Part shown: in pieces, positions 6,703 through 13,199 of the stretch
How positions within the stretch are numbered: position 1 is the first letter of the stretch
Layout of the letters: the number at the start of each line of letters is the position of its first letter
IMG/VR virus record: IMGVR_UViG_3300014050_000075
Span: 1-35,031 of that record
Origin: a virus
Strand: one strand, 5' to 3'
DNA length: 35,031 bases
Program-made: the position numbers and the translations under genes
The notes under the pieces: generated by a model
Databases searched by the model: none
Seen by the model: the letters and a program-made list of their open reading frames with translations, nothing else
Told to the model about the DNA's origin: nothing

Positions 6703-9054
6703 TTATTGAATTTGTCTACGTGATATATTTCTAGCTGTTTCAAATTGTGTTCCGTCGTATGAATTATTTATTGTTATTAAAATAGGTTGGGGTTGAGGAG
6801 TAGAAGGTGACATATTAATTGTTCCTTGGGGGGTACTTACAACATCATTACCCTTAAATAATTTAGTTCCGGCTATAACTGTATCTTTATCGTTTAATGC
6901 TATTACGCCTTCTGGAGCTAGAAGAGTGCGTTTGCCGTAACCTGGAGAAATCATGTCGTTTGCTTTATTATATGCTTGATACAGTCCTGCTATACTTGCA
7001 ATTGCCAATCTTGCTCCTATAAAAGGGCCAGCAGGGCCTAATCCCATAATACCCGAAAATATCCCTGAATATATAGAACCAATTGCGGTTCTTATAGATT
7101 TAATACTTAAGACAGCCATAAGTCCTATTACAGTTTTTAAAATAGGTCCTAATCCATTTAACTTTTTATCTATAAAGCTTACTATATCTCCTATAACTTT
7201 AAAAGCAGAAGTTATTGGAAGTAATAGAAAATTTATAGCGGGCATTACAGTTGAAGCTAATGTTATTAAAGGAGATACTATTTGTAATATAGGTTCAGCT
7301 AATGAAACAAATATTTCTTGAAGTTTTTCAACTGATTTATTAAAACGTTCTTGAATAGATTGTGATCTAAGTTGAGCAGCTAGTTTATCATCTCCTAATT
7401 TTAAAGCTATTTGATCGTCTGATAGTCCTTCTTTTTTAAGTCTATTGTATGCTTCTAAAGCGGTTTTATCTCCTTCTCCAATTGCAGCTAATGCTTCTCT
7501 TTCTATTAATGATTTTGCTAAATCCTCTCTAGTCATGCCTACAGCTTTGGCTAATGCTTCTTGCTGTAGAACATTCATATTTGTAAAATCTGCTGCACTT
7601 CCTATTTGTTTAGCTATTTCTTCAGCAGCTCCTGCTAGGTCATTATTTAAAGCTAATAATCTAGCTCTTTCTAAATATAAATCTTTACCTACTAATAATT
7701 CAGCAGAAAGTTCAGCTTCTATAGAAGATTCAAATTGTAACAATGAGCTTGCAATTTGTTCTACTTTTTCTAAAGTAGTACCTAATGCTTTAGCTTGTAA
7801 ATTTGCTTCAGCAATTTTACCAGGTTGCATGCCTAATGATAAAGTAGTAGCAGCTGATGTTTTAGCTACTGCTTCTACAATTTCTTTTTCATTTAAAGCT
7901 AATTTATTTATAGCATTAAATGCTACTGCTTGCCCTAATATCTCAGCAGTATTTTCTGATAAATCTGTACCAGTTGCTACTGTTATTTTGGATAATTCGG
8001 ATGCTGCTTCTGCTGTGTATCCTGCTACTTCGGTTAATCTAGTGTAATCTTTTAACAGCTCGCCATTTAGCATGGTAGCAGTACCAAATTGCTTATTAAG
8101 TTCTATAAGCGCTTTTTGTAATGATGCAGTATTTACATTTATATCAGCACTTAAATTAGCTATAGTATTTAATTCATTGCGCAAAGACGCGGCTTCAGCG
8201 TATGATATACCAAATGATTTAGCGAGTTCACCTGTAGATTTATCTGCAGCTTTAGTAGCTTCATATAATTTTTGGGCTGCGTTTTGTAAAAGTTCTATGG
8301 GGTTAAGAGATGCTTTTAAATTTGTAGATATTATACCTGTAAAAGTTTTTATAGCATTAAATTCTTCACCTGCTGATTCGGCTTCTTGTGCTAATCTTTG
8401 AGTTTCTTTCCAAGCATCTTCAAAACCTAAATCCGGAATCCCCATATCTTTAATTAAAGAATCTAGTGCTTTAACAGTTACAGCACGAATCCCTAATTCT
8501 TTATTTATTTTATTGTTTAATATTAAAGCTTCTTCATATTCTCCATTTATATATTGGGCATTTTTAATTTGTTCTTCTAATTCCTTTTTTCTATTTATAG
8601 CTTGTTGAATAGCTTGTTGACTAGTAAATAATCCTTGTCTTTTTTGTATTTCTATTCTTTTTATTTCTTCATTTAAACGATTAATAGATTGTATATTTTG
8701 ATCTTTAAATATTAAATAATTTTTATAATTAAAATCAGATTCTCCTCTTTTTATTCTTAATAAATTTTCAGCTTGATTTTCTAAAGGTTTTATTGCTGAT
8801 CTATGTAATGCTAAAATAGGCAACATAGATTGCATTGTATTTACTATTTGTTTAAAGGATTGATCTAAATAATTAACATCACCTGAGATTTGTCGTATTT
8901 GGTCGTTAACTAAATTTAAAGCATTATTAAATAAATTAACATCCGCACTAATAGCATTAAAATTAAATAGATTTTGAGGAGATCCTGTAAGTTGTTCTAA
9001 TCGAGAAATTGCATCTCGTAAATCTTGCATTTGTTGAGAGGTAGGAACAGCCAT
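6703..9054 (-). CDS. Tail tape measure protein (gp29-like role)
   Basis: A 783-aa protein. Residues 1-170 are heptad-like coiled coil (repeated LNEEIKRIEIQK-type helices); 180-580 are Ala-rich helices; two hydrophobic stretches at about 588-630 and 635-695 include FLLLPITSAFKVIGDIVSFI and a Gly-rich IFSGIMGLGPAGPFIG segment, typical of the membrane-active part of tape measures. The end has the common motif APEGVIALNDKDTVIAGT, then a Pro/Gln linker. It determines tail length as a scaffold inside the tube and is ejected into the host envelope. At about 1.5 angstrom per residue the tail would be near 115 nm, longer than T4. It follows the chaperone-like ORF pair and precedes baseplate genes, the standard position. 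No Shine-Dalgarno precedes the ATG. Confidence 0.9.
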   Translation of the reverse strand: MAVPTSQQMQDLRDAISRLEQLTGSPQNLFNFNAISADVNLFNNALNLVNDQIRQISGDVNYLDQSFKQIVNTMQSMLPILALHRSAIKPLENQAENLLRIKRGESDFNYKNYLIFKDQNIQSINRLNEEIKRIEIQKRQGLFTSQQAIQQAINRKKELEEQIKNAQYINGEYEEALILNNKINKELGIRAVTVKALDSLIKDMGIPDLGFEDAWKETQRLAQEAESAGEEFNAIKTFTGIISTNLKASLNPIELLQNAAQKLYEATKAADKSTGELAKSFGISYAEAASLRNELNTIANLSADINVNTASLQKALIELNKQFGTATMLNGELLKDYTRLTEVAGYTAEAASELSKITVATGTDLSENTAEILGQAVAFNAINKLALNEKEIVEAVAKTSAATTLSLGMQPGKIAEANLQAKALGTTLEKVEQIASSLLQFESSIEAELSAELLVGKDLYLERARLLALNNDLAGAAEEIAKQIGSAADFTNMNVLQQEALAKAVGMTREDLAKSLIEREALAAIGEGDKTALEAYNRLKKEGLSDDQIALKLGDDKLAAQLRSQSIQERFNKSVEKLQEIFVSLAEPILQIVSPLITLASTVMPAINFLLLPITSAFKVIGDIVSFIDKKLNGLGPILKTVIGLMAVLSIKSIRTAIGSIYSGIFSGIMGLGPAGPFIGARLAIASIAGLYQAYNKANDMISPGYGKRTLLAPEGVIALNDKDTVIAGTKLFKGNDVVSTPQGTINMSPSTPQPQPILITINNSYDGTQFETARNISRRQIQ

Positions 9055-9086: not shown

Positions 9087-9114
9087 AAAAAAGCATCACT
9101 TTCGCGATGCTTTT
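9087..9114 (-). terminator. Rho-independent terminator overlapping the end of the chaperone ORF
   Basis: On the minus strand GCATCGC-GAAA-GTGATGC forms a 7-bp stem (one G-U pair) closed by a GNRA-type GAAA tetraloop, followed by six T. The 5' arm and loop encode the last residues (KASRK) of the 9096 ORF, and its TGA lies in the 3' arm. Confidence 0.8.
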
Positions 9115-9449
9115 GTACTATGAGTAGGTTTATATTGTTTGCTAGCAGCGGCAAATTCAGAAACATTAACTTTCCCATCTGCACTTACAACTTGAGTTGA
9201 ATTACCTTGATTTGCTTTGTTTATAGCTTCACTTTCGTCGCTATACCACTTTTCTATTTTATGGAATGTAAATTTACGTAACCATATAGGCATATTATAT
9301 ATAGTATAGTAATCATATCCTCCCTTCCCATGAAATACTATTTCGTGTATTTGAGAGAATAGATTTACTCTAACTTGAGGAGCTACCTCAGGCGTCAGGC
9401 CAAAAAAAGTTAAGATTAATTGGGATAGCGACCTCCTCACCGCTATCAT
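9096..9449 (-). CDS. Tail assembly chaperone-like ORF, probably expressed by frameshift from the gp26-like gene
   Basis: An open frame of 117 codons overlapping the 3' end of the gp26-like gene by 62 bases in another frame. The part after the overlap (101 aa) reads like a real protein: PQVRVNLFSQIHEIVFHGKG, YDYYTIYNMPIWLRKFTFHK, then a polar Ser/Lys-rich tail. Residues 1-16 are simply the alternate reading of the overlap. Its position between gp26-like and tape measure genes, with an out-of-frame overlap containing a T7 run (minus strand; A7 at 9402-9408), matches the G/G-T chaperone arrangement of many tailed phages. +1 or -2 slippage would make a fusion of about 340 residues. No good independent start is evident: the AGGAGG at 9432-9437 has no canonical start codon at a useful distance. 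An internal terminator hairpin covers its stop. Confidence 0.7.
   Translation of the reverse strand: MIAVRRSLSQLILTFFGLTPEVAPQVRVNLFSQIHEIVFHGKGGYDYYTIYNMPIWLRKFTFHKIEKWYSDESEAINKANQGNSTQVVSADGKVNVSEFAAASKQYKPTHSTKASRK
9376..9410 (-). promoter_or_regulatory. Candidate programmed frameshift site (T7 run plus short hairpin)
   Basis: In the gp26-like frame the minus strand reads AAC TTT TTT TGG CCT GAC GCC TGA. A -1 slip meets TGA after two codons (TTG GCC TGA), but a +1 or -2 slip on the T run enters the 117-codon frame (GGC CTG ACG CCT GAG). TTT codons re-pair perfectly in either direction. A weak hairpin TGAGG-TAGCT-CCTCA starts 11 bases after the run. Function is inferred. Confidence 0.5.
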
Positions 9450-10119
9450 CTGTAAAGTTTAAATTAACATCAGGTTGAACCTGTTTAATATATTCTCTTA
9501 ATGCTCTAGAATCACGAGCTAATAAATAATTATCTACAAAATCTCTAATAGTTTTTGTCTCTCTATCACCATTAACAGAAGTAATTAAATATTTTAATCT
9601 AGTAGTAAGTTCAGGAGAAGCATTTTTGTTAACTTTTTTAATACCTTTAATTTCAGCATCAATTTTTTTATCATCAGCTGAAGTTAATATTTTAAATGTT
9701 AATTTTGTTCCTGAACTTGGTAATGTATAGTTAAATTCATTTTCACCTGGGGTGATTAGTGATTCATCAAAATATTTATTATCTAATGTAGATAAATCTA
9801 CTGTATATTCTTTACCCCCATAATTAAAGGTATATTCGCTACCATATCCTAAAATACGAGAAGCTACAAGTAGTGCATTTTTATCTCCTACAATTAAATC
9901 ATTATAGTTAATTTTGGATACAATAAGAGATTGTAATAATTTGTCTAATACAGTGCCGTCTTGAATATATGATTGATTAGTAAGAATATCTTCTTCTTTA
10001 GCGGTCATATATTTCATTTCAACTTTACCGCTTGATAAAGGATTATCTTTAGGATATATTAGTCCTTTAGATGGCAATTCAACTACTTCAGTGGGGAAAC
10101 TAGGTTTTTCGTCTGTCAT
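9388..10119 (-). CDS. T4 gp26-like baseplate hub / tail assembly protein
   Basis: A 243-aa protein with the features of the T4 baseplate hub protein gp26 family (T4_baseplate type): PTEVVELPSKGLIYP near the start, then KVEMKYMTAKEEDILTNQSY, a VLDKLLQSLIVSKI helix, DLIVGDKNALLVASRILGYG and a strand-rich middle. T4 gp26 is 208 aa, so this is slightly longer. In T4 it is needed for hub assembly; by genomic position it also matches the first ('G') member of tail assembly chaperone pairs. The last codons NLNFFWPDA overlap the next ORF in another frame. The gene follows the membrane/coiled-coil gene after 65 bases that contain one arm of an inverted repeat and a late-promoter-like motif. Confidence 0.8.
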   Translation of the reverse strand: MTDEKPSFPTEVVELPSKGLIYPKDNPLSSGKVEMKYMTAKEEDILTNQSYIQDGTVLDKLLQSLIVSKINYNDLIVGDKNALLVASRILGYGSEYTFNYGGKEYTVDLSTLDNKYFDESLITPGENEFNYTLPSSGTKLTFKILTSADDKKIDAEIKGIKKVNKNASPELTTRLKYLITSVNGDRETKTIRDFVDNYLLARDSRALREYIKQVQPDVNLNFTDDSGEEVAIPINLNFFWPDA

Positions 10120-10142: not shown

Positions 10143-10155
10143 TGATTATAAATAT
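10143..10155 (-). promoter_or_regulatory. Late-promoter-like motif before the gp26-like gene
   Basis: Coding strand ATATTTATAATCA, a close variant of ATATTTATAATAAA, 23 bases before the ATG at 10119. It overlaps by four bases the left inverted-repeat arm at 10152-10175. Confidence 0.45.
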
Positions 10156-10175
10156 TATAGGGGAAAGTTCTTTAA
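10152..10175. repeat. Inverted repeat, left arm
   Basis: This 24-base segment (plus strand begins ATATTATAGGGGAAAG and ends TTCTTTAA) is the reverse complement of 10476-10498 except for one extra G. The two arms enclose the 87-aa membrane gene. Confidence 0.8.
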
Positions 10176-10184
10176 TTGGATTCT

Positions 10185-10448
10185 TTATCCTTTTATAACT
10201 TGTTTTGGGGTTAATCTATTTTCTAGTTTATCTAATCGAGAATCGAGTTGTCGATAAACTTCTTGAAATTGTTGGTCTGTGTTTTGATGCACATCATCAA
10301 TTCTTCGATGTACATTGTTAAATTCATTTTCGCAATCTCTTGCTTGTTCTTTTAATGTGTTTATTGTTTTAATTACAATAAATGCAGCTATAACCTCGGC
10401 TACCACCAAGACTACAACCATACCTAGTACAAAATAAAATGTTGTCAT
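10185..10448 (-). CDS. Small single-pass membrane protein with coiled coil, flanked by inverted repeats
   Basis: An 87-aa protein. Residues 4-29 form one hydrophobic helix (VLGMVVVLVVAEVIAAFIVI); there is no lipobox or cleavage site, so it is probably an anchored N-terminus. Residues 30-80 are a charged heptad-like helix (VHRRIDDVHQ, EVYRQLDSRLDKLENRL). The architecture is like small phage membrane proteins such as spanin-like, holin-associated or superinfection proteins, but no family is recognised. It lies alone between the terminator after the tail tube gene and the gp26-like gene, a position where tail genes are usually continuous. Both flanks carry matching inverted arms, so it may be an inserted single-gene cassette. 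The ATG at 10448 is the only reasonable start; no Shine-Dalgarno precedes it. Confidence 0.75.
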   Translation of the reverse strand: MTTFYFVLGMVVVLVVAEVIAAFIVIKTINTLKEQARDCENEFNNVHRRIDDVHQNTDQQFQEVYRQLDSRLDKLENRLTPKQVIKG

Positions 10449-10475
10449 ATTTTTTAATTTAAATTGTTGAATATA

Positions 10476-10498
10476 TTAAAGAACTTTCCCTATAATAT
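10476..10498. repeat. Inverted repeat, right arm
   Basis: This 23-base segment matches the reverse complement of 10152-10175 with one single-base gap (23 of 24 positions). It lies 27 bases before the start of the membrane gene and just downstream (in transcription sense) of the tail tube terminator. Confidence 0.8.
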
Positions 10499-10510
10499 GC
10501 TTATAATATA

Positions 10511-10562: not shown

Positions 10563-11051
10563 TTAGAAGTTCAATACACAATAATCCATCCCTACTGTTA
10601 AAGTAATATTTTGAACTGCAGTATCATTATCAAAATTATAATCACCAAAATTAGCGGATTTAACAAATGCACCTTTAATAATCCATTCAGATACAATGTC
10701 ACCTACAGGGCCTATAATGTCTAATGTTAAATCTTTTTTATAAAAATCAGAATATCCATCTCTACCTGTTACTGATTCGTGGTGTAGGCGAACCCATTCC
10801 ATTACAGCTTGTGCCCCAGATGGGGTAATAGGATCGAATAAAGTCATTTGAATATCACCCCACTTAAGTTTACCTTTAATTTTGCGATAAACGTTAATGT
10901 GGTTTAATACTAGTTCGCCTTGTTCAAAATTAACGCCATTTACTGCTTTTATAATATAGGCGGGAATGCCGTCTATATACATTAAAAAGCGGTTTTGAAC
11001 TTTAGGTTCAAAGGATGTGAAAAATATTTCGTTAGGGTTTAATACTGCCAT
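10563..11051 (-). CDS. Tail tube protein (T4 gp19-like)
   Basis: A 162-aa protein, the same length class as T4 gp19 (163 aa). It shows the family pattern: an N-terminal NRFLMYIDGIPAYIIKAVNG, a strand pair with VLNHINVYRKIKGKLKWGDI, the phrase MTLFDPITPSGAQAVMEWVR followed by a helix, then DIIGPVGDIVSEWIIKGAFV and a closing strand with ITLTVGMDYCVLNF. Hexameric rings of this protein stack to form the inner tube through which DNA passes. It follows the sheath gene by 39 bases that include a perfect copy of the late-promoter-like motif and is followed by a strong terminator, as expected for an abundant product that may need its own promoter. Confidence 0.95.
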   Translation of the reverse strand: MAVLNPNEIFFTSFEPKVQNRFLMYIDGIPAYIIKAVNGVNFEQGELVLNHINVYRKIKGKLKWGDIQMTLFDPITPSGAQAVMEWVRLHHESVTGRDGYSDFYKKDLTLDIIGPVGDIVSEWIIKGAFVKSANFGDYNFDNDTAVQNITLTVGMDYCVLNF

Positions 11052-11090: not shown

Positions 11091-13199
11091 TTACGCAGGG
11101 AATGTAGCACCTGTTGGAGTAATGTTAAAGTCAAGATAAATAAATTCAGCAGTTTTGGTTGGTTGTAAATAAATAGCACCCATTAACATATTTCTATCTA
11201 CTACATCAGGTGTATTATTTGAATCGTCCATTACTACTTTAAATGCATACAAACCTTGACGTTGTTGTACTGATTCGAGATATGGGTTAACTTGACTTAA
11301 GAATTGGTTTCTTGTGGCAATTGTATTTTGTTCAAATACTAAGTTTAATGACACTTGAGAAATGTAAGACTTAAGAGCAATTAATAATCTACGAACATTT
11401 ACACGATCAAGAGCAGATGCTTTAGTTTGTAATGTTTTCTGTCCGTATACTACAACACCTGTTCCTGGGAAGGTTGCAATTGGGTTAACTTTAGCTGAAT
11501 ATAATGTGTCTCTATCTGTTTGGGATAATTTACGTTCAGCTCTAATTACAGTTCCTAATCCACCTCTATTGATACCTGCGGGAGCAAACCAAGGCTCAGC
11601 TATATTATCATTGTAGGCATATACACCACCAATCATAGTTGATGCTGGAACCCAAACGTTTTGTCCTAAATCAGGATCTACTGTTTGAACCCAAGGCCAA
11701 TATGAAGCCGCATATGAAGTATTTCTAGAAGCTGCTTGACCTGTAGTTGCAACTATTGTGCTGTTATAAGGTACTAAATCAAGTACATAAATATTGTCTC
11801 CTCTATTCTGTGTATTAGAGATAATACTAGTTACTTGGGAAGTATGTGAAGAATTTATTAAACCAGGAGTTAATAATATATTAAATCTATAATCATCTTG
11901 ATTAGCTAATAAATTAATTATATTTGTATAACTAGCACCTACTAATCCTTGTGTATTAGTACCTATAGTTTCATATAAGTTAACAGTAGAACTAATAGTT
12001 CCACCTGCACCACCAAATGATCCACTAGAATTAGTTGGAATTGAAGCAGTAAACGCAGGTTTAGCTATACCATTATTATCTAAATAATAAGGAGTAGGAG
12101 CAGATACAGAATCAACATATACATACCTAGAAGCATTTGGATAACTACCTATAGTTTGAATATAAGTATTAGTAATATCTAATTGTTGATATTGGTCTCC
12201 TATAATTTTAGATACATAATTAGGTTGAGTTGGATCAAGTGATAATCCTGTCCAAGTTTCTAATACAATAGGATTAGTAACCGAAATATCATCTCCTCTT
12301 CTAATTACTAAATCAAATGTACCTGATGAAGTATTAGAATTAAGTACTTGCCATCTTAAATTATCTATAGAACCACTAGGTAATGAACCTGATGTTTCTG
12401 TACTAGTACTATTCATAATAGTACCTTCAGAAATAGTTTTTAAAGTAAATGCATTTGTACCTATAGCGGCTGTAGCTCCCGAAAAAGTAATTTGGGTTGT
12501 ATGTAATGCAGTATCGTTGCTAGAGCCTGTACTAAATATAGCACCATTCCAAGCGGCTGAAGCACTAAATATAAGAACAGTAGTAGTAGCGGCGGTCGAA
12601 CCAGTAGCTGCAAAAAATCCAGCTTGTCCTACATTAGTAGCTGCATTAATTTTTTGAGTTAAGTTAAAAATACTTTGAGATTGGTGAGAACCACTTGCAA
12701 AATAGTAGAATTGTTCAGTAGTATTTATATCATCTGTCCAAGTACCACTAGCTGTAGGAATAAAGAAATAATTAGTACCCCCATTATTTATTCTAAAAAC
12801 AGGTGAACCATTAAACCCACTATTACTAGCACTGTAAGCAAAACTAGAAGAAACTCCTGCAGTTGCTGGGGTTCCGTTTGCAATAGTACTACTAGTAGCA
12901 GAAGTCCATGCTGAGGATTGGCTTACTACTCTTGTTACTAATAAGGATGTACCTCCATTATTAAAATAATTGTAAGCAGCAATTGATGTTAGATAACTAA
13001 CATTTCTGCCACCACTTACAAATGTAGTACCAAATTTATTTTGGTATTCTGAATATGAAGTTACAAGAGTAGGTATTTCAACAGGACCTTTAACAGTAGG
13101 TCCTACAAGTGCTGCACCTACCGTTACAGGTCCCGCGGTTATTTGTGATTGGTCGTTTTCTCTTGCTAAAACGCCTGGGGAAATTAAAGTTTCTGCCAT
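11091..13199 (-). CDS. Contractile tail sheath protein (T4 gp18-like)
   Basis: A 702-aa protein (T4 gp18: 659 aa). The N-terminus has the sheath signature: LISPGVLARENDQSQ, then AALVGPTVKGPVEIPTLVTS, YQNKFG and a YLTSIAAYNYFNNGGTSLLV segment. The C-terminal 200 residues carry the polymerisation domain: AERKLSQTDRDTLYSAKVNP, VVVYGQKTLQTKASALDRVN, RRLLIALKSYISQVSLNLVF and a C-terminal strand ending TPTGATFPA. Between residues about 100 and 420 lies a long Ser/Thr/Gly-rich region, probably the outward-facing variable domains. The sheath contracts to push the tube through the host envelope. It is followed directly by the tube gene as in T4. A variant late-promoter-like motif precedes it. Confidence 0.93.
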   Translation of the reverse strand: MAETLISPGVLARENDQSQITAGPVTVGAALVGPTVKGPVEIPTLVTSYSEYQNKFGTTFVSGGRNVSYLTSIAAYNYFNNGGTSLLVTRVVSQSSAWTSATSSTIANGTPATAGVSSSFAYSASNSGFNGSPVFRINNGGTNYFFIPTASGTWTDDINTTEQFYYFASGSHQSQSIFNLTQKINAATNVGQAGFFAATGSTAATTTVLIFSASAAWNGAIFSTGSSNDTALHTTQITFSGATAAIGTNAFTLKTISEGTIMNSTSTETSGSLPSGSIDNLRWQVLNSNTSSGTFDLVIRRGDDISVTNPIVLETWTGLSLDPTQPNYVSKIIGDQYQQLDITNTYIQTIGSYPNASRYVYVDSVSAPTPYYLDNNGIAKPAFTASIPTNSSGSFGGAGGTISSTVNLYETIGTNTQGLVGASYTNIINLLANQDDYRFNILLTPGLINSSHTSQVTSIISNTQNRGDNIYVLDLVPYNSTIVATTGQAASRNTSYAASYWPWVQTVDPDLGQNVWVPASTMIGGVYAYNDNIAEPWFAPAGINRGGLGTVIRAERKLSQTDRDTLYSAKVNPIATFPGTGVVVYGQKTLQTKASALDRVNVRRLLIALKSYISQVSLNLVFEQNTIATRNQFLSQVNPYLESVQQRQGLYAFKVVMDDSNNTPDVVDRNMLMGAIYLQPTKTAEFIYLDFNITPTGATFPA

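Follow-up and report, generated by a model that had tools for sequence, protein, structure and literature searches.

A gp26-like gene on the minus strand of a viral DNA ends inside a second open reading frame (ORF2) that lies in another frame, which raises the question of how the second frame is translated: from a start of its own, or joined to the first. The window analysed, that is, the whole stretch of DNA, is a viral record of 35,031 bases with 34% GC. Its minus-strand order is sheath, tube, an 87-aa ORF, the gp26-like gene, ORF2 and tape measure (Table 1). The placement of the tube and tape measure genes around the tail assembly chaperone (TAC) gene is shared with immuto and Mel-JY01, and in the window a single small ORF separates the tube gene from TAC-N. 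We put the probability at about 0.86 that the two ORFs are one tail assembly chaperone gene, expressed via a ribosomal +1 frameshift. In the sequences, this reading is carried by the frame, the conservation, the coding pattern of the +1 frame, the absence of start codons in many relatives and the loss of the site where ORF2 is separate.

Table 1. Features of the tail gene region, in order along the minus strand
Feature	Position	Strand	Match or remark
Sheath gene	11091-13199	minus	
Tail tube protein gene, upstream of TAC-N	10563-11051	minus	PHROG_4542, 2.1e-22
TAC-N, gp26-like tail assembly chaperone, short form, 243 aa, 0 frame	9388-10119	minus	
ATG, mechanical beginning of ORF2, probably no start	9447-9449	minus	not conserved
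ORF2, 117 aa	9096-9449	minus	
Shine-Dalgarno-like GAGGAGG, 23 nt before the T run	9432-9438	minus	
Slippery run TTTTTTT (0 frame TTT TTT T)	9402-9408	minus	
Near-invariant core TTTTTTTGGCCTGAC	9394-9408	minus	identical in 87/93 non-redundant loci; codon usage contrast
TAC-C, putative +1-frame extension GLTPEVAP..., 101 aa past the shift	9096-9401	minus	
0-frame stop TGA, end of the short form	9388-9390	minus	
Tape measure protein gene, downstream of ORF2	6703-9054	minus	PHROG_167, 1.7e-4

The overlapping frames and their predicted products

The preliminary description had the two genes overlapping by 62 nt in different frames, and the coordinates confirm this. The AAC TTT TTT TGG that it placed in the overlap is there as well, the coding strand from 9411 to 9388 reading AAC TTT TTT TGG CCT GAC GCC TGA. 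Translation bears out that a -1 slip is soon stopped (CTT TTT TTG GCC TGA) and that +1 or -2 enters ORF2. Skipping one T yields a clean fusion, ...NLN FF GLTPEVAP..., of 340 aa, in agreement with the roughly 340 residues anticipated. The extent of ORF2 stands as first described; the ATG at 9449 does not stand as its start, since it is not conserved. A T7 run by itself is not above chance in a window of 34% GC, which has ten exact T7 runs, five per strand; TTTTTTTGGCCTGA occurs in it once. The 3' part of the core TTTTTTTGGCCTGAC reads W-P-D in frame 0 and G-L-T in +1.

In a +1 frameshift at this site, most ribosomes would terminate at the TGA at 9390-9388 and give the 243-aa TAC-N. In a minority, the P-site tRNA-Phe would rest on TTT with TGG waiting in the A site and would slip forward by one base (TTT_T to TTT); these ribosomes would continue with GGC CTG ACG... 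to a 340-aa TAC-NC. If the parallel with lambda gpG/gpGT holds, TAC-N may serve as a coat for the tape measure protein, and TAC-NC may recruit tube subunits. Family, gene order and precedent all point to such a chaperone role.

TAC-N matches the baseplate hub family PHROG_150 at 2e-7 and Pfam T4_baseplate (PF12322) at 0.0022, the latter with 18.1 bits, under the cut-off of 24.5. The structures of TAC-N and TAC-C were predicted as separate halves. In BFVD, the AF2 model of TAC-N (pLDDT 91.8) finds SP-15 (2.7e-17) and gp26 of Aeromonas phage 25 (6.1e-4), and by PHROG_150 and this predicted fold TAC-N is assigned to the T4 gp26 family. HK97 2ob9 had the highest probability among the Foldseek matches listed for TAC-N, 0.41, with a weak E of 0.96. 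For TAC-C the quality of the model is moderate (pLDDT 76.7), and a structural search with it gave no significant match; a sequence search of the PDB gave no relative.

Two further features of the surroundings can be described. An inverted repeat (10145-10176 and 10475-10507; 16 nt perfect, 33 nt at 91%) encloses the 87-aa membrane/coiled-coil ORF (10185-10448) that separates the tube gene from TAC-N. Immuto is without this ORF at the corresponding place, and ORF and repeat may together form a cassette that is mobile or was inserted recently. A strong terminator-like hairpin at 9089-9114 (minus strand), between the TAC and tape measure genes, would uncouple their expression.

Conservation of the site among relatives

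Scans with both proteins gave 159 places containing both parts (158 loci and the window), which were clustered at 85% into 93 non-redundant representatives. The core TTTTTTTGGCCTGAC is exact in 87 of these, and ORF2 lies in the +1 frame in 92. The preliminary description had proposed an alignment of homologues and named the lack of a conserved T run as an argument against a frameshift; both the run and the overlap proved to be conserved. The search itself did not depend on the run in most cases, 83 of the 93 representatives having been found via peptides away from it, and 78 of those 83 have the identical 15-mer. Codon choice at the site is TTT in 98%, CCT in 99% and GAC in 98%; outside the site, the same genes use TTT for 82% of Phe, CCT for 41% of Pro and GAC for 18% of Asp. 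TGG CCT GAC is fixed by dual coding, as W-P-D and G-L-T, which does not account for the T run. Core conservation in the relatives is, by these counts, far above chance.

Other scans gave a similar pattern. When viral contigs were scanned for TTTTTTTGGCCTGA, 76 of the 80 matches listed were at the end of TAC-N; in 74 of these 76 the +1 frame matches the TAC-C profile, and in the other two TAC-C is divergent. The proteins of immuto, Mel-JY01 and LR756508 were used for deeper scans with peptides chosen outside the site, and these gave 95 representatives, 93 of them open in +1; a query with the SP-15 protein returned only SP-15 itself. Pooling gives 188 site rows from two partly overlapping sets, 184 of them with an overlapping ORF2. 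The arrangement is kept in the complete isolate genomes of immuto, Mel-JY01, SP-15, LIS04, RM378 and GXN1. Past the 0-frame stop, substitutions between close relatives number 1251, 627 and 3034 at positions 1, 2 and 3 of the +1 frame (the pairs are not independent), and this third-position excess matches the pattern upstream in frame 0. The sequences support TAC-C as coding in +1. Conservation in nearly 200 loci gives strong support to the proposal that a +1 frameshift at the T run connects the gp26-like protein with the ORF that follows.

In two loci (L393 and L424) TAC-C is divergent (FFGLTSDYRAWWEEELFVCRKHIGWSYEDLM...) and appears intermediate between the extensions of the +1 clade and those of a -1 group of T4-type phages. 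Public annotations of immuto and SP-15 contain only the last 36 and 39 codons of the extension, as a hypothetical protein, and that of LIS04 leaves the region blank (L162:5851-5961, L164:4809-4928 and L165:4708-4939).

The relatives of the window genes are found in Flavobacterium phages and in contigs binned with Flavobacteriales, Winogradskyella, Saprospiraceae and Sphingobacteriales, so the hosts of the window's clade are likely Bacteroidota. Other hosts in the group are Firmicutes for SP-15, LIS04 and GXN1 and a cyanobacterium for Mel-JY01. A contig from a Woesearchaeota MAG (L185) has a TAC gene with TTTTTTTGGCCTGAG; it is probably a misbinned phage contig, the alternative being a wider host range.

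Alternatives to the proposed ribosomal +1 shift

The dominant site among the 188 pooled rows is TTT TTT TGG, and the variants are TTT CTT TGG, TTC TTT TGG, CTT TTT TGG, TTT CTA TGG, TTT TTT TAC, TTT CTT TAC and TTT TTT TTC. Named phages have TTT TTT CAC (SP-15), TTT TTT AGT (LIS04), TTC TTT CGT (GXN1) and TTT TTT TGG (RM378). All of these are compatible with a +1 slip of a P-site tRNA-Phe or tRNA-Leu (TTT_T, TTT_C, CTT_T).

The preliminary description left the choice between +1 and -2 open, and the variants favour the former. A Mu-like -2 ribosomal shift on the T7 run would give a fusion with an additional Phe. The commonest site, TTT TTT T, lets the P-site tRNA re-pair either one base forward or two bases back, and Mu does use -2 (PMC5009743). 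However, no -2 re-pairing is possible at TTC TTT TGG (L348, L351, L353, L354) or TTT CTA TGG (L197, L219), nor at TTC TTT CGT in GXN1 or TTT CTA TTC in LR756508, and all of them keep the frame. We therefore consider -2 unlikely in general, though it may occur at individual T7 sites, and infer that the direction is +1.

RNA polymerase slippage on the run, also raised at the outset, would produce mixed mRNAs that join the frames. Although most members have the 7-nt homopolymer on which a polymerase could slip, the longest T run is 3-4 in about 24 site rows from relatives (of the types TTT CTT TGG, TTT CTA TGG, TTC TTT TGG and TTT CTT TAC), and the +1 frame is kept in them. Such sites do not fit transcriptional slippage, which moreover gives no obvious role to the GGCCT constraint or the upstream GGAGG, and we regard it as very unlikely. 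Because the broken-run variants keep the frame, a ribosomal +1 shift is preferred over both -2 and a transcriptional event.

It is scarcely probable that ORF2 is a separate gene that overlaps incidentally and is translated from its own start via re-initiation or coupling. The window does have the ATG at 9449 with GGAGG close by, and in four loci (L046, L158, L358, L363) ORF2 stands apart and has an ATG to itself. However, 28 of the 93 representatives have no ATG, GTG or TTG between the +1-frame stop and the run, and in many start-less loci the next ATG is 36 codons inside the conserved domain. A +1 stop lies six codons or fewer upstream in 24 of 91 loci, with no ATG, GTG or TTG after it, so separate initiation fails there; CTG, ATT, ATC and ATA are also missing between stop and run in 21 of these 24. 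A conserved separate start, which the preliminary description would have counted against a frameshift, was sought across the 93 loci and not found. None of the four loci with a separate ORF2 retains the slippery site intact; they have three tree placements inside the +1 clade and carry TTC TTC TGG CCT, TTC TTC TGG CCC, TTC TTG TAT CCT and TTC CTT TGG CCA (L046, L158, L358, L363). L363, the weakest of these four controls, retains a CTT_T able to slip. The loss ties the site to the overlap: in this comparison of sequences, the site stays intact where the overlap depends on it and degenerates otherwise.

The separate loci differ in their arrangement. L046 has a GIY-YIG endonuclease ORF (L046:3786-4412; PF01541, 1.2e-5) between TAC-N and TAC-C, and its downstream part, with its own ATG and a decayed slippery site, has a beginning (MKPTEIKIPLGLNMFG) that resembles the end of TAC-N. 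Stand-alone TAC-C genes without TAC-N are present at L358:2223-2543, L363:2223 onward and L158:3007-3324, and constitute a further arrangement besides the frameshift fusion and the two genes of T4.

Finally, a homopolymer error of assembly or sequencing that splits a single gene, a concern of the preliminary description, has a negligible probability: homopolymers are prone to errors, but nearly 200 assemblies and six complete isolate genomes agree on the arrangement, non-homopolymer variants included, and the 0 frame invariably stops shortly after the site.

The upstream GGAGG and known frameshift systems

The conserved signal extends beyond the T run first described and comprises TTTTTTTGGCCT and an upstream GGAGG element. 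Of 91 representatives, 68 have GGAGG at -45..-15, in most cases at a distance of 23 or 26 nt from the run; elsewhere in gp26 it occurs 26 times in 59,958 nt. GAG makes up 75% of Glu codons in the last 20 positions vs 13% elsewhere. The element is common in the immuto group (23/32) and weaker in that of Mel-JY01 (13/55). We rejected it as a ribosome-binding site of ORF2, as it is kept in 20 of the 24 loci in which stops block +1 initiation. Shine-Dalgarno elements act at a distance of about 3 nt in prfB and about 10 nt in dnaX; the 23-26 nt found here exceeds both, and we know of no stimulator with this spacing. Bacteroidota ribosomes make little use of Shine-Dalgarno sequences. GGAGG may nonetheless be a helper of the shift.

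RNAalifold found no consensus RNA structure over 91 loci, and single-sequence folding at the site was little different from control stretches. A hairpin in the window, GATAGCG...CGCTATC (9447-9424), was discarded as a conserved element because relatives do not share it. Pairing of GGAGG with CCTC across the site is not shared either, CCTC or CTCC occurring downstream in 19/68 loci with GGAGG and 7/23 without. We suggest only tentatively, and at less than even odds, that the site represents a new class of +1 signal, with UUU_U/C or CUU_U in the P site, a sense codon (mostly Trp) waiting and help from a GGAGG 23-26 nt upstream, used in Bacteroidota hosts and spread through a whole phage clade.

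The chaperones of T4-like phages are, according to Vladimirov, Gautam and Davidson, reportedly gp26 and gp51. In the seven T4-type relatives examined (P-SSM5, S13, phiAS5, LG08, RL38J1, Cygsa01 and VmeM-32) it is the -1 frame that carries the extension, which in six cases comes after a TTT TTN site. T4-type chaperones share with the window clade the gp26 family and a shift at the FF motif ending TAC-N; their extension, however, is in the -1 frame, whereas that of the window clade is in +1 (92/93 loci). T4 itself has two genes. In a 44-row tree the -1 and T4 rows stand opposite all +1 rows across a 100/100 branch, several branches being long. The direct profile match between TAC-C and the T4-type extension is weak (5%), and the TAC-C of distant +1 members matches the -1 set at 86%. 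According to papers that cite it (PMC12846349 and PMC10885494), the work of Vladimirov, Gautam and Davidson (2022, Virology 566:9) identified the tail assembly chaperones of T4-like phages; the former paper mentions polyT -1 sites in T4-like TAC-N genes, and the latter some T4-like phages with a short and a long gene in place of a frameshift. The earlier suggestion of a gp26-family protein in the 'G' role is thus not new.

More distant systems share single traits with the window clade. Lambda gpG/gpGT and its relatives, reportedly the subject of Xu, Hendrix and Duda in 2004, also have a short and a frameshift-extended chaperone from overlapping ORFs between the tube and tape measure genes; lambda slips -1 whereas the window clade would slip +1, and the likeness is one of gene arrangement. 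RF2 (prfB) and influenza PA-X, too, involve re-pairing by one base in the forward direction at a P-site NUU codon (CUU_U, UUU_C). In RF2 the A site holds a stop codon and a Shine-Dalgarno precedes the site by about 3 nt, whereas the window clade usually has TGG in the A site and GGAGG at 23-26 nt. The PA-X site is UUU_CGU, and the putative site TTC TTT CGT of Streptococcus phage GXN1 (L168, about 4700) contains UUU_CGU. In other phages, tail genes with -1, with -2 and with +1 shifts have each been documented (PMC5009743). Mu and haloarchaeal HSTV-2 share a tail chaperone shift into the +1 reading frame, but that of Mu is -2 and the +1 of HSTV-2 is a single archaeal virus case (PMC5009743). SPP1 gp17.1* is likewise a +1 shift in a phage tail gene, but it occurs in the tube protein at CCC_UAA, and the chaperone shift of SPP1 is -1 at UUUUUUC (PMC6316719).

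The kind of event is known from the tail genes of other phages, and the window clade presents a variant of it; the +1 direction, the near-invariant core and the upstream GGAGG appear to be new. From the sequences, one gene appears to give short and long forms of a presumed tail-building protein in a large T4-related group, mostly Bacteroidota viruses. The 14-mer TTTTTTTGGCCTGA would be an almost diagnostic marker for annotating this gene, which current pipelines miss or shorten, and the conserved GGAGG with its odd spacing poses a testable question about the stimulation of +1 shifts. Elsewhere, -1 dominates tail-chaperone frameshifting. If our reading is true, +1 would be the rule in a large and abundant phage clade. 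A single protein family would then include a reversal of shift direction at homologous positions, and so provide a natural experiment on the determinants of slippage direction.
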